Positions 58,971 through 64,000 of a stretch of 64,000 bases of DNA are shown here, one piece after another. Made by a program: the position numbers and the translations under genes. Each line of letters begins with the position of its first letter. Position 1 is the first letter of the stretch. Origin of the DNA: Nitrospira sp. (GTDB lineage Bacteria; Nitrospirota; Nitrospiria; Nitrospirales; Nitrospiraceae); NCBI GenBank assembly GCA_030123565.1, contig CP126122.1, forward strand, positions 558,001 to 622,000, read 5' to 3'. Below the pieces are notes generated by a model. That model worked only from the letters and a program-made list of their open reading frames with translations, did not search any database and had not been told where the DNA came from.

Positions 58971-60230
58971 ATGGCGGCGAAGCGGACGGTGACCCAGTTG
59001 GAGCAGGCCTTGCGCGAGAAGATCCGTGAGGTCGATGTGCTGCACCGTATCAGCGAGTCGATCAGCAACACCCTCGATCTGGAGTCGGTGCTTCGGCATA
59101 TCGTCGATATGGTCGTGGAAGTGACCAAAGCCGACGCTTGCCTGCTGTACCTTCTCTCCGACGGCAGAGACGAACTCATTCTCCGGGCCTCGAAGAATCC
59201 TCATCCCAAGCTGATCGGGCGCATCACCATCGGGTTGGGAGAAGGGATCACCGGCTGGGTGGCGCGGGAGCGGACCCGCGTGGTGATTCCGAACAGCGCG
59301 AGCGATGATCCGCGGTTCAAGTTTTTTCATAACCTTCCGGAAGACCGTTATCAGGCCTTTGTCTCAGTGCCGATCACGACCAAACAGGAAGTCGTCGGAG
59401 TCATCAACGTGCAGCACAAGCGGCCGCGTCGATATCGCCCGGACGAACTGGCGCTCCTCTCGACAATCGCCACCCAGGTGGGTGGGGCCATCGAGAACGC
59501 CCGCCTCTACGATCAAATGACGCGCAAGGCCTTGCAACTCGATACGCTGTCTCAAGTGTCGGAAACCCTGTCGTCGAATCGATTGATCGAGGATGTATTG
59601 CAGTTGATCGTGACGATGACGGCGCAAATGATGGGTTCGAAGATTTGTTCCATTATCTTGTTGGACCAGGCGACGAGCGAACTACGTATCGCCGCCACGC
59701 AAAGTTTGAGCGAGCAGTATCGGCGCAAACCGAACGTGAAGGTCGGCCAGAGCATCAGCGGGCGGGCCGTTCAGGATCGCCGGCCGATCATCGTGCCGGA
59801 TGTCACCAAAGAGGGCAGCTATGTCTATCCGGACATGGCCGCGAAGGAAGGGTTGTGCTCCCTCCTGTGCGTGCCGATGCTGGTGCGGGAAAAAGCCATC
59901 GGGGTCATCAATACCTACACGTCCAAGCCGCACAGCTTCACGGCCGAAGAGGTGAAGCTGATGCAGGCGATCGCCAATCAGGCTGCGATCTCCATCGAAC
60001 ACACGACCCTGTTGGAAAAGTCGTTCGAAATGCAGGAAGCGTTGCAGGTTCGGAAGTTGCTGGACCGGGCCAAGGGCTACTTGATGAGGTCGAAGCGGTT
60101 GTCGGAAGAAGACGCGTTCAAGCTGATTCAACGGCAGAGCATGGACCTCCGCAAGTCCATGCGGGAAATCGCCGAAGCGATTCTCCTGGCTGGAGAAATC
60201 GAAGAGCGAGCCGACAAGGGAAAGGGCTGA
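58971..60230 (+). CDS. GAF-GAF-ANTAR RNA-binding antitermination regulator
   Basis: 419 residues. A short coiled coil (about 5-30) leads into GAF domain 1 (about 35-178, with GEGITGWVARERTRVVIP and FVSVPI), a linker helix, GAF domain 2 (about 200-347, GQSISGRAVQDRRPIIVPD and CVPMLVREKAIGVINTY) and an ANTAR domain (about 356-408: LLDRAKGYLMRSKRLSEEDAFKLIQ, then MREIAEAILLA). ANTAR proteins bind tandem hexaloop RNA hairpins and prevent transcription termination. Such a leader with terminator lies at 61355-61451, before the porin/urtA genes. TAGGAG precedes the ATG. What the GAF domains sense is not evident; no receiver domain is present. Confidence 0.92.
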   Translation: MAAKRTVTQLEQALREKIREVDVLHRISESISNTLDLESVLRHIVDMVVEVTKADACLLYLLSDGRDELILRASKNPHPKLIGRITIGLGEGITGWVARERTRVVIPNSASDDPRFKFFHNLPEDRYQAFVSVPITTKQEVVGVINVQHKRPRRYRPDELALLSTIATQVGGAIENARLYDQMTRKALQLDTLSQVSETLSSNRLIEDVLQLIVTMTAQMMGSKICSIILLDQATSELRIAATQSLSEQYRRKPNVKVGQSISGRAVQDRRPIIVPDVTKEGSYVYPDMAAKEGLCSLLCVPMLVREKAIGVINTYTSKPHSFTAEEVKLMQAIANQAAISIEHTTLLEKSFEMQEALQVRKLLDRAKGYLMRSKRLSEEDAFKLIQRQSMDLRKSMREIAEAILLAGEIEERADKGKG

Positions 60231-60239
60231 GCGTTCGTG

Positions 60240-61205
60240 TTATGGAGTGCGAGCGCCGGATTTGGTCGGTGCCGATGGCGGTGAAGCGGGACCGCCCTGG
60301 TTCGTGGGACGGTCGCCCAGTTGGCGTTTGATTTCCTCCAGTTCCTTCCGTAGGTCCTCCACTTCCGTCTCTTTCTGTTTCATCTCGTCTCTGATCTGCT
60401 GGAGGTCGTCCTTCGATGGAGACGCTGTGCCTGGCGCACTCGCTGGAGACGGTTGGGGCTGTGCGGCGGCCGGTGGCGGCGGAGTTTGGAGCGGCAGCGA
60501 CGTCGAGGACGAGGGGAGTTTCGCAAGCACACCATAGTCGATGACGAGGGTGGTGAACCCTTCTTCCGTCGCAAAGGCCGGTGTATAGATATCCGGGCGC
60601 AGGACCGATTCCGGCACGAAGCGAACGGTGTGGTTTCTCAATCCTGTTGGGTCGGGAAGGCGGCGATTCGGCATGTCGATGCTGTCGGCCGGCTCCGGTC
60701 GATGGTGAAATTGAAGCAAGGTGAGATAGAGGGATCGGCCATACACAAACAGTCTGCCCGCGGTCGTGCTTTCCGATGCACGGTATGCAGGGGGGTCCGA
60801 TGACCCGACTCCAGCCCCCGTACGTTCCCTGTAGGGGGCGTCCTCAGTCCGTGACAAACGAAAACCGATCTGCTGATCCGCGGCGGCTTGGCTCAATCCC
60901 TTTGCGATCGCCGGGGCGAGAAAGGTGATATCGGCTTGGGAGAATGCCGCGACGATCGGCTTTTGGCCCATGCCGAAGGACTGCAACAGGCCGTTGTCTT
61001 CGCGTACAGTCACGCCCTGTAACACTCGGGCGATCAGCTGAGAGTCGAGCCGAATGGGATGCGCCGCTTGGAATTGGCGAGTGGGGATGCGCTCGAGATA
61101 TACCGCCCCTTGAGGCGATTCCAAAATCGCCATATCGAGTTGTGAGCCGGTCTTGCAGCCGGCGATGAGCAGCGTCAACAGCAGAACCAGGATGGAGGGT
61201 CGCAT
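60240..61205 (-). CDS. Hypothetical lipoprotein with C-terminal coiled coil
   Basis: 321 residues. Lipobox LIAGC (Cys17) after a short hydrophobic signal. The middle part (about 20-220) is a folded domain that I do not recognise, with SQADITFLAPAIAKGLSQAAADQQIGFRLSR and GRLFVYGRSLYLTLLQF (in parts). Then a Pro/Ala-rich linker and a heptad coiled coil KDDLQQIRDEMKQKETEVED, ending in a Pro/Ser/Thr tail. AAAGGAC precedes the ATG. It converges with the ANTAR gene (9 bases apart) and diverges from the porin leader. Confidence 0.65.
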   Translation of the reverse strand: MRPSILVLLLTLLIAGCKTGSQLDMAILESPQGAVYLERIPTRQFQAAHPIRLDSQLIARVLQGVTVREDNGLLQSFGMGQKPIVAAFSQADITFLAPAIAKGLSQAAADQQIGFRLSRTEDAPYRERTGAGVGSSDPPAYRASESTTAGRLFVYGRSLYLTLLQFHHRPEPADSIDMPNRRLPDPTGLRNHTVRFVPESVLRPDIYTPAFATEEGFTTLVIDYGVLAKLPSSSTSLPLQTPPPPAAAQPQPSPASAPGTASPSKDDLQQIRDEMKQKETEVEDLRKELEEIKRQLGDRPTNQGGPASPPSAPTKSGARTP

Positions 61206-61300
61206 GAATAGTCCTTTCGCACGATCGAACAGGCGAACGACGGCAGTCTATCACAGAGTGTGGTGGTATCGGCGGGGGGAGGAACGAGTCGGCCCCTCGC

Positions 61301-61330
61301 TTGACAGGAGGAGGATGGGGAGCGTATACA
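61301..61330 (+). promoter_or_regulatory. Sigma70 promoter of the porin/urt leader
   Basis: TTGACA (61301-61306), 18-base spacer, TATACA (61325-61330). Transcription would start near 61337, about 20 bases before the first hexaloop hairpin, giving a leader of about 170 bases. Confidence 0.7.
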
Positions 61331-61354
61331 CCTCCGCTGTATGCGCGGAAGGTA

Positions 61355-61412
61355 AGGACAATGACGTCCTGAACTGGCGCAGACAGCGGTAAGCAGAGGA
61401 CAACGACGTCCT
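61355..61412 (+). promoter_or_regulatory. Tandem hexaloop RNA hairpins, ANTAR target
   Basis: Hairpin 1: AGGAC (61355-61359), loop AATGAC (61360-61365), GTCCT (61366-61370). Hairpin 2: AGGAC (61397-61401), loop AACGAC (61402-61407), GTCCT (61408-61412). Both loops have six bases with A first and G fourth, the two bases required for ANTAR binding; the stems are identical. A 26-base linker separates them. Hairpin 2 shares its 3' arm with the following terminator, so only one of the two can form. Confidence 0.85.
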
Positions 61413-61451
61413 TTTGGTCCGACGGTTGGACCGGAAGGGCGTTTTTTTTTT
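61406..61451 (+). terminator. Intrinsic terminator in the porin/urt leader
   Basis: Stem of 15 pairs including three G-U pairs: left arm 61406-61420, loop GACGGTT, right arm 61428-61442, running into an unbroken T-run to 61451. It is the only textbook intrinsic terminator I found in the window. Its left arm takes up the whole 3' arm of hexaloop hairpin 2, as in NasR, EutV and AmiR-type attenuators. Confidence 0.85.
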
Positions 61452-61509: not shown

Positions 61510-62877
61510 ATGAATGCACGAATGTCCGGAGGAACCGTCCTCGGGGCGGTCATGATGATCGTCACCGTGGCGGTTCCGGCCTATGCGCAGGATCAGAGTG
61601 CCGGAGAGGCGGCCGGCGCCGGTCGTCTGAGCCGAGAGACGGAGACCCCGCCCGCGGTGATTTGTGGAGGTTGTGTGACCCCTACCTTTGCCGGCGAGGG
61701 CAAGGGCAGCATCGTTCCCTACGGTCGCATCGAATTGGATGCGATCTACAGCAATAGGAATACCAACCCGCTCGACCCAGGTCAATTCAACGGGTATGCG
61801 ACCGCGGCAGGAAAGAGCAGCAATGCGTCGTCCACGCTCAACCCCCGGTACAGCGTGTTCGGACTGCGTGCCGACCGGACGGACGGGAAACATGTGCTCA
61901 CCGGCGTCGTGGAAGCGGACTTCTACAGCCAGACCGACAATGCGGGCAACATCTCGCCCCGCCTGCGGTTGGCGAACGTCAAATATTCTCCGAACAACAG
62001 TCGGACCACCATCACAGCAGGAATGGATTGGACGCCGATCATGGCCTCCCATCCGAACCTGATCGATTTTTCCATCATGGGCTACAATGGGAATCTCTGG
62101 CAGCGTCTGCCGCAAATCACCCTCAAACATCAATTCACGGACAATGTGAACGGCTTGCTGACGGTCATGCGGTTCGAACGAGGCCTGTCGGCGATCCAGC
62201 CGCAGACTCAGCGGCGCCCGTTTCAAGGCGCCGGCGCGGCGACGGTGGCGCCGGGAAGTTGCGGAGGAAACGGATTCGCCTGTTCCGAAAACGCCTTCAA
62301 CGATCCGGTGCAGATGCCCTACGTCGGCACCCGCTTCGCCTACATGGGCACGGGCCAACAGCAGGGCCTGATGGTCGCACTCAACGCGGCTTTCCGGCAT
62401 TACCGGTCCGCGCCGACCGCCGGGGGAATTCCTTCCGGCCAGGACATCAACTCGTATCTCGTGGGCGCCGAGTTCGCGGTGCCGCTGACCGCCAGGCTGA
62501 AATTCACCGGCGAGATCGCCTATGGACAGGCGTTGGGCGTGGAGTTTTTCCGCTTCGGACAGGAGCGGAACCTGGGCACAGGCAAGGCGATCCGCACCCT
62601 GGTCGGATGGGGCGAGTTGGATTATGCCTATGACCGGCGACACACCTTCATCGCCGGCTATGGATTCGACAATCCGCTGAATTCGGATTTACGGGGAACG
62701 ACCGCCGGGCCGGATACGCAGTATCTGCTCAACCATCGGACCTATCTGACGGCCGTCCGCCACATTTGGGGAGACCTGTATGCGTCGTTTGAGTGGAATC
62801 ACCTCATGACCGAATGGTCCACTGGTGAGCATTTTTCCGGAGACAATTTCATGCTCTCGACCTGGTACAACTTCTAG
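61510..62877 (+). CDS. Outer-membrane porin
   Basis: 455 residues. A signal peptide ([15 protein letters not shown]) is followed by an N-terminal polar segment and an alternating beta-strand barrel with [41 protein letters not shown] (in parts), GMDWTPIMA and the final strand ending FMLSTWYNF, a terminal Phe as in BAM substrates. It lies directly ahead of urtA and behind the ANTAR-controlled leader, so a role in letting urea or small amides through the outer membrane is likely; FmdC-like porins hold this place in urt clusters. Start ATG 61510 is fixed by AGGAGG. Confidence 0.8.
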
Positions 62878-62906: not shown

Positions 62907-64000
62907 ATGAACGCGCAGAATCCATCGAGTGCGGATGAGACGATCGCCGATAACAGGCAGACAGGACTGCCGTCACGGCGCGAATTCCTGCTGCAGAGTT
63001 CGCGAACCGCGGCCGGCATCGGGGTGGCGGCCTTGCTGGGCAACCTGGGCCAGTGGGCGCTGTCCTATGGAGCCGACAAGGAGCCGATCAAGATCGGGGT
63101 CTTGCATTCGCTCAGCGGCACGATGGCGATCAGCGAAGTGTCCTTGAAGGATGTCGTGTCGATGGCGGTGGAAGCGATCAATGCGAAGGGCGGCGTGCTG
63201 GGCCGCCAACTGAAACCGGTGATCGTCGATCCTGCTTCCAACTGGGACCTGTTCGCGGAGAAGGCCAAACAATTGCTGGTGCAGGACAAGGTGGCGGTGG
63301 TGTTCGGCTGCTGGACGTCGGTTAGCCGGAAATCCGTATTGCCCGTGTTCGAAAAGAACAATGGCTTGCTCTTCTATCCCGTGCAGTACGAAGGCGAAGA
63401 ATGTTCCCGTAACGTCTTCTATACAGGGGCGGCGGTGAATCAGCAGGCGGTACCGGCCGTGGAATATCTGATGGGCAAGGAAGGAGGCGGGTACAAGAAG
63501 TTCTATCTGCTTGGGACCGACTACGTCTATCCGCGGACCACGAACAAAATCCTGCGGGCTATGTTGCTCGCCAAGAAGGTGTCCGCAGCCAACATCATGG
63601 AGGAGTACACGCCGTTTCACCATCAAGATTATCAGACCATCGTGGGGAAGATTAAGAAGTTCGCCGCCGGCGGCGGCGCCTGCGTGATCAGCACCATCAA
63701 CGGCGACAGCAACGTGCCGTTCTACAAAGAATTCGCGAACCAGGGATTGCGGGCGGACGACGCGCCGATTATGGCGTTCAGCGTCGCGGAGGATGAGTTG
63801 CGGGGCATGGACAAGACGGCGCTGGTCGGCCATCTGGCGGCCTGGAATTATTACCAGAGCGTGGACACGCCGCAGAACAAGCAGTTCGTGGCCGACTTCA
63901 AAGCCTACTGCAAAAAGAACAATCTGCCGGACGGCGACAAGCGCGTCACCGACGATCCGATCGAAGCCGCCTACTTCGGTGTACATGTCTGGAAGCAGGC
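62907..64000 (+). CDS. urtA: Urea/short-chain amide ABC transporter substrate-binding protein (partial)
   Basis: 364 codons to the window edge, no stop reached. N-terminal twin-arginine motif SRREFLLQ followed by a hydrophobic [11 protein letters not shown] stretch, so Tat export is likely. The mature part is the UrtA/AmiC-type periplasmic binding fold: [55 protein letters not shown] (in parts), [28 protein letters not shown] and [27 protein letters not shown] precedes the ATG; it follows the porin by 29 bases. urtBCDE are expected downstream. Confidence 0.92.

Follow-up and report, generated by a model that had tools for sequence, protein, structure and literature searches.

Urea uptake genes in Nitrospira sp. 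stand behind a leader whose structure raises the question of whether their transcription can be stopped before the first gene is reached and, if so, which protein allows it to continue. The window analyzed here, a 64,000-nucleotide stretch (positions 558,001 to 622,000 of contig CP126122.1, assembly GCA_030123565.1), carries this leader at 61337-61451. An initial annotation had read it as an ANTAR antitermination switch in front of a porin-urtA operon in what looked like a nitrite oxidizer, an assignment of the host that holds up. The analyses described here indicate that the leader is, with high confidence, one of seven attenuators that make up an ANTAR-dependent antitermination regulon serving nitrogen scavenging, and that one RNA-binding protein very probably switches on this gene set by blocking the early end of the message.

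Anatomy of the leader and its locus

Direct reading of the leader confirmed two hairpins with identical AGGAC/GTCCT stems on the forward strand, P1 (AGGAC-AATGAC-GTCCT, 61355-61370) and P2 (AGGAC-AACGAC-GTCCT, 61397-61412), the six-base loops of which both begin with A and have G as their fourth base, as found in ANTAR target RNAs. P1 is backed by covariation in relatives, and P2, the putative antiterminator, is predicted to form in the nascent RNA. Folding and a terminator scan placed an intrinsic terminator at 61405-61451 (forward strand), with its stem at 61405-61443 and a run of ten Ts at 61442-61451; one terminator was found where 0.1 was expected from shuffles. The terminator had been described as a 15-pair structure that shares the 3' arm of P2 and ends in a T-run, and this description stands except for the length of the stem, which has 18 pairs (8 of them G-C). 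Because the 5' arm of the terminator is made up of the 3' arm of P2 and part of the P2 loop, the two structures are mutually exclusive, and the proposed antitermination anatomy is upheld.

For the 124-nt leader, the predicted folding energy is -62.9 kcal/mol (z = -7.2 compared to shuffles). Scanning of both strands showed it to be the single site in the window with two A1/G4 hexaloop hairpins and an overlapping terminator, and the same arrangement was found in none of 40 Markov-random windows. A search against RNA models, suggested in the initial annotation, yielded no matching Rfam family for the leader at either gathering or permissive thresholds. A promoter-like pattern, TTGACA-N18-TATACA, at 61301-61330 (forward strand) would place the transcription start at about 61337; this promoter is a prediction only, since a stricter scan missed it and listed no promoter. 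Of 19 relatives examined, 9 show similar patterns ahead of the leader.

The first gene downstream of the leader (61510-62877, forward strand; ribosome-binding site aggagg) encodes a 455-aa protein that resembles outer-membrane porins and has no Pfam match; this gene is kept in 23 Nitrospira loci. It is followed by urtA (62907-64000, forward strand; TIGR03407, E = 4e-177), encoding the binding protein of a urea ABC transporter, which begins a urtABCDE operon that runs past the edge of the window (urtB-E are located at genome positions 622273-626617). Most of these 23 loci show the same order of aroB, ANTAR gene, divergent lipoprotein gene, leader, porin gene and urtA. Since the lipoprotein-like gene (60240-61205) is encoded on the reverse strand between the ANTAR gene and the leader, the regulator and its putative target do not share one transcript.

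The lipoprotein-like family itself has no Pfam or NCBIfam match. In relatives with an ANTAR gene, its gene is oriented divergently ahead of the urt operon, and in those lacking ANTAR it lies near urtA; a probable paralogue is found in the nitrogen island (genome 639144-640184, reverse strand).

The GAF-GAF-ANTAR regulator

The gene at 58971-60230 (forward strand) encodes a 419-aa one-component regulator, and its stop codon is located 1.1 kb from the leader, as first annotated. Two GAF domains were identified by Pfam, together with an ANTAR domain spanning residues 354-405 (PF03861, E = 7e-19; 67.8 bits compared to a cut-off of 27.3), and the C-terminus is predicted to be helical (residues 325-375, 379-393 and 397-417; pLDDT about 90). 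The Pfam scan also bore out the reading of the sensor as a double GAF module, as it showed no NIT domain of the NasR type and no receiver or pseudo-receiver domain of the EutV, AmiR and NasT types. A genome search revealed that this is the sole ANTAR protein of the closed 4.6-Mb Nitrospira genome, and orthologues in 23 relatives show 64-98% identity.

Among the residues through which EutV contacts RNA (R142, K143, K147, K149, E160, Y164, R168, M172, N173, R175 and R177; PMC8934654), R142, K143, K149, E160, M172 and R175 are identical in the Nitrospira protein and two are replaced conservatively (K147 by R and Y164 by F). The remaining three differ (R168 to Q, N173 to D and R177 to S); Rv1626 likewise carries Q, D and F at the positions of R168, N173 and Y164, and NasR also has D at N173.

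A proposed regulon of five transcription units

The motif GGACAANGACGTCC occurs six times in exact form in the whole genome, and all six sites are located at 619356-655333, directly after the ANTAR gene, a clustering with a chance probability of about 2e-10. When 22 leaders, the seven of this genome included, were used to build a covariance model, it gave seven matches with E values of 5e-21 to 5e-7. These all lie no more than 36 kb from the ANTAR gene, with none elsewhere in the closed 4.6-Mb genome. Annotation of the target genes showed that these seven leaders head five transcription units. Single leaders precede porin-urtABCDE, nadE (encoding a glutamine-dependent NAD synthetase) and porin-amt-amt-PII-glnD-glnA, while tandem pairs of leaders precede a lipoprotein gene and nirC-nirA. 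Urea uptake, which had been taken as the target of the switch, is therefore correctly assigned for the porin-urt operon and is only one of five units; taken together with conservation across the order, these units point to a regulon for nitrogen assimilation that is more than a urea switch. Predicted folds of RNA ending at P2 showed both hairpins at their expected places in six of the seven leaders; the exception, leader 5b before nirC, showed P2 only and not the assigned P1. In all seven full-length leaders, the terminator is predicted to fold in place of P2.

Two tandem attenuators lie before a gene for a 306-aa protein without an assigned family (genome 641115-642035, reverse strand), and this protein is encoded behind leaders in other genera as well (L230, L288 and L291).

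Conservation across the order

All 29 genomes of the genus encode exactly one ANTAR protein and contain leaders. Across 197 genomes of the order, some of which are incomplete MAGs, an ANTAR protein was found in 139 and leaders in 137. Leaders occurred in 133 of the 139 genomes with an ANTAR gene and in 4 of the 58 without one, and the remaining counts were 6 genomes with ANTAR only and 54 with neither (Fisher P = 1.6e-36, a value that overstates independence because the genomes are related). The partnership of protein and leader that had been proposed for this locus is strongly backed by the single ANTAR gene, the clustering of leaders behind it and this co-occurrence. The four genomes with a leader only and the six with ANTAR only are partly incomplete assemblies. 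Four leaders (L015, L016, L019 and L023) were considered as ANTAR-free cases and rejected, as an ANTAR protein is encoded elsewhere in the respective genomes; among eight genomes checked, ANTAR was missing in one, the 1.6-Mb bin of L020.

Compensatory changes, which the initial annotation had named as a check, were found in the leaders of relatives and are strong, supporting both P1 and the terminator in the set of 22 leaders. In 78 leaders, mostly from outside this set, covariation reached 0.51, compared to 0.20 in shuffles and at most 0.16 with slid partners, with 324 cells showing changes on both sides. Loop position 4 was G in all 156 loops of these 78 leaders, an invariance that partly reflects the training of the search model on G4. 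At loop position 1, 136 loops have A, 19 have G and 1 has T, which is looser than the published rule. A phylum-level search with the model gave only weak matches outside the order, which indicates order specificity of the model and not necessarily of the ANTAR system.

Downstream genes were sampled for 60 leaders, most of them from other genera and families. Nearly all of these leaders head urt, nadE, amt, nirC, cynS (encoding cyanate lyase) or NrtA-like genes, or genes for a sigma-54 activator (with nirC next in two loci), a carbonic anhydrase or a histidine kinase.

Absence of the putative switch in a comammox group

Of the 197 genomes, 48 carry ammonia monooxygenase genes; 39 of them belong to one genus (g2) and have no ANTAR protein, and the other 9 belong to another (g4) and all have it. 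The genus g2 itself splits, since ANTAR occurs together with Amt in ten genomes and both are missing from a large group; overall, Amt without ANTAR was found in only 5 of the 197 genomes, four of them from another family. The two comammox clades have been reported to correspond to two GTDB genera that also include non-comammox members (PMC12342949), and Rh-type transporters have been reported for clade A comammox and Amt-type transporters for clade B and canonical Nitrospira (PMC6311188). In combination with the pattern of ammonia monooxygenase, Amt and ANTAR, these reports suggest that the comammox organisms of g2 represent clade A and those of g4 clade B. The clade-A-like group lacks the regulator, the leaders and Amt and has kept urt operons that carry no attenuators, while the clade-B-like group has retained the regulator. 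Specifically, none of 14 stretches from the ANTAR-less g2 group contained a GGAC-hexaloop-GTCC hairpin within 350 bases upstream of urtA, and only 1 of the 14 contained any run of six Ts; G076, also of g2, has both hairpins and a T-run upstream of urtA.

In the ANTAR-less loci L189-L202, a conserved element, GCATCA...GGAGTGATGC (also written GCATCA-ACCGGAAGTTTGCAACTCAC-...-AAGGAGTGATGC), was found around the urtA ribosome-binding site, approximately 50 bases before urtA. This element has no Rfam match, and it is kept in sequence, not by compensatory change, so that any structure is only putative; it may take the place of the ANTAR leader in regulation. For ANTAR-less Nitrospira, a glutamine riboswitch ahead of urtA was also considered and was not supported by Rfam. 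The ANTAR-less comammox genome G108 carries a leader-like element (L281:3579-3683) with no recognizable regulated gene behind it, which is perhaps a relic. In two g4 comammox genomes (L282/G088 and L283/G128), a leader adjacent to the ANTAR gene heads genes for a dCache-PAS histidine kinase and a LuxR-type response regulator, suggesting that the output of the switch may pass to a further signaling layer there.

Proposed mechanism and alternative explanations

By analogy with EutV, NasR and AmiR, transcription would start just upstream of each leader and, as long as the GAF-GAF-ANTAR dimer is inactive, the terminator would fold, absorb P2 and stop RNA polymerase. Under nitrogen shortage, sensed by the tandem GAF domains, the dimer would be activated and its ANTAR domains would bind the P1 and P2 hexaloops as they emerge from the polymerase; the bound protein would hold P2 folded so that the terminator fails and transcription reads through into the operon. 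The urea (porin-urtABCDE), ammonium (porin-amt-amt-PII-glnD-glnA), nitrite (nirC-nirA) and NAD synthetase units would be opened jointly in this positive mode of control, and the regulon of relatives would also take in cyanate lyase and the NrtA-like transporter gene.

That the leader is simply an intrinsic terminator of the upstream gene, with a coincidental pair of hexaloops, has a negligible probability even though terminators with T-runs are common, as the upstream gene (60240-61205) is oriented the other way, both the promoter-like site and the leader face the porin gene, and the hairpin pair, absent from the random windows, is kept with compensatory changes. Somewhat less improbable, while still very unlikely, is a plain attenuator or riboswitch that responds to a metabolite or to some other protein and has nothing to do with the neighboring ANTAR gene. 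The terminator and hairpins of such an element would resemble those seen here; nevertheless, the near-perfect co-occurrence of ANTAR genes and leaders in 197 genomes, a G4 hexaloop rule satisfied in every leader, the lack of a second ANTAR gene in the genome and of a matching Rfam family, and the disappearance of leaders along with the ANTAR gene where urtA persists all argue against it.

The more serious question concerns the logic of the switch, as the same parts could operate with a protein that binds RNA by default and is released by a ligand, or that senses one specific substrate. NasR and EutV answer the substrate of their pathway, and GAF domains bind many ligands that sequence does not reveal, which lends this version some weight; it is nonetheless rather unlikely, given that targets spanning urea, ammonium, nitrite, cyanate and NAD synthetase fit a general nitrogen signal better than a single substrate, and that GAF1 is close to the GAF domain of PtsP, reported to bind glutamine and 2-oxoglutarate (PMC13104625). 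Among solved structures, the sequence of GAF1 is nearest to 3e0y, which has no stated function, followed by the PtsP GAF domain; comparison with 3ci6 gave a TM score of 0.84-0.87 (by target length) at 29% identity, a match of fold and sequence only. With nearly all targets gathering or assimilating nitrogen, and with glutamine-dependent NAD synthetase (NadE-Gln) tied to PII (PMC7196632), nitrogen shortage appears to be the likeliest signal for activation of the GAF-GAF-ANTAR protein. More weakly, the signal could be nitrogen status in the form of glutamine or 2-oxoglutarate, and direct sensing of either compound by the regulator is suggested here only tentatively.

Relation to known ANTAR systems

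The closest parallel among characterized systems is NasR of Klebsiella oxytoca, also a one-component ANTAR protein in nitrogen assimilation, with a homologous ANTAR domain (4akk) and a dual hexaloop leader (nasF) that overlaps a terminator; NasR, however, senses nitrate and nitrite through a NIT domain and controls one operon, whereas the Nitrospira protein has tandem GAF domains and five putative target units. EutV of Enterococcus faecalis shares the A1/G4 hexaloops, the mutually exclusive terminator and the use of several attenuators, and most but not all of its RNA-contact residues are kept or conservatively exchanged in the Nitrospira protein. EutV is a REC-ANTAR two-component response regulator that answers ethanolamine and AdoCbl, whereas the Nitrospira protein has no receiver. 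ANTAR antitermination of nitrogen oxyanion genes is also described in Paracoccus and Bradyrhizobium (PMC3795266, PMC6759348), where NasT, unlike the Nitrospira protein, is part of a two-component pair with the sensor NasS.

The initial annotation had listed only nitrate, ethanolamine and amides as known targets, and this list proved too short. In a 2012 study (PMC3369931), ANTAR leaders were predicted in other bacteria before amt, PII, urea transporter, nitrite and glutamine-synthetase genes, with 13 leaders and 6 units in Desulfotomaculum acetoxidans and a further predicted regulon in Pelobacter carbinolicus; these resemble the Nitrospira system in placing many attenuators before nitrogen genes and differ in phylum. 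Nitrogen ANTAR regulons that include urea transporters are therefore already known in kind. The same study (Ramesh et al.) catalogued GAF-ANTAR architectures, stating that none had been characterized, and its accessible part contains no order-wide co-occurrence of regulator and leader, no tandem-GAF regulator and no lineage-specific absence, although its supplementary tables may list Nitrospira. By 2020, the NasR paper named two characterized one-component proteins, NasR and the PAS-ANTAR-LOV protein PAL. The Nitrospira system would add to these a sensor type predicted from sequence to be a tandem GAF, a record of conservation across the order and a lineage-specific absence. The nitrogen-gene island of Nitrospira has been described in the literature, in which we found no paper naming an ANTAR regulator for it.

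The proposed regulon would provide a single protein and a single RNA element for this island, predicts which of its genes move together and assigns a putative function to the GAF-ANTAR architecture. It is conceivable, although we hold this with limited confidence, that the regulator senses nitrogen status (glutamine or 2-oxoglutarate) directly, as a one-component protein, and acts as the master switch for nitrogen assimilation among the canonical nitrite-oxidizing Nitrospirales, and that clade A comammox shed regulator, leaders and Amt jointly once ammonia and urea had become energy sources and were no longer simply sources of nitrogen. The absence of the switch in clade-A-like comammox and its presence in the clade-B-like group would tie a regulatory change to the shift from nitrite to ammonia oxidation.
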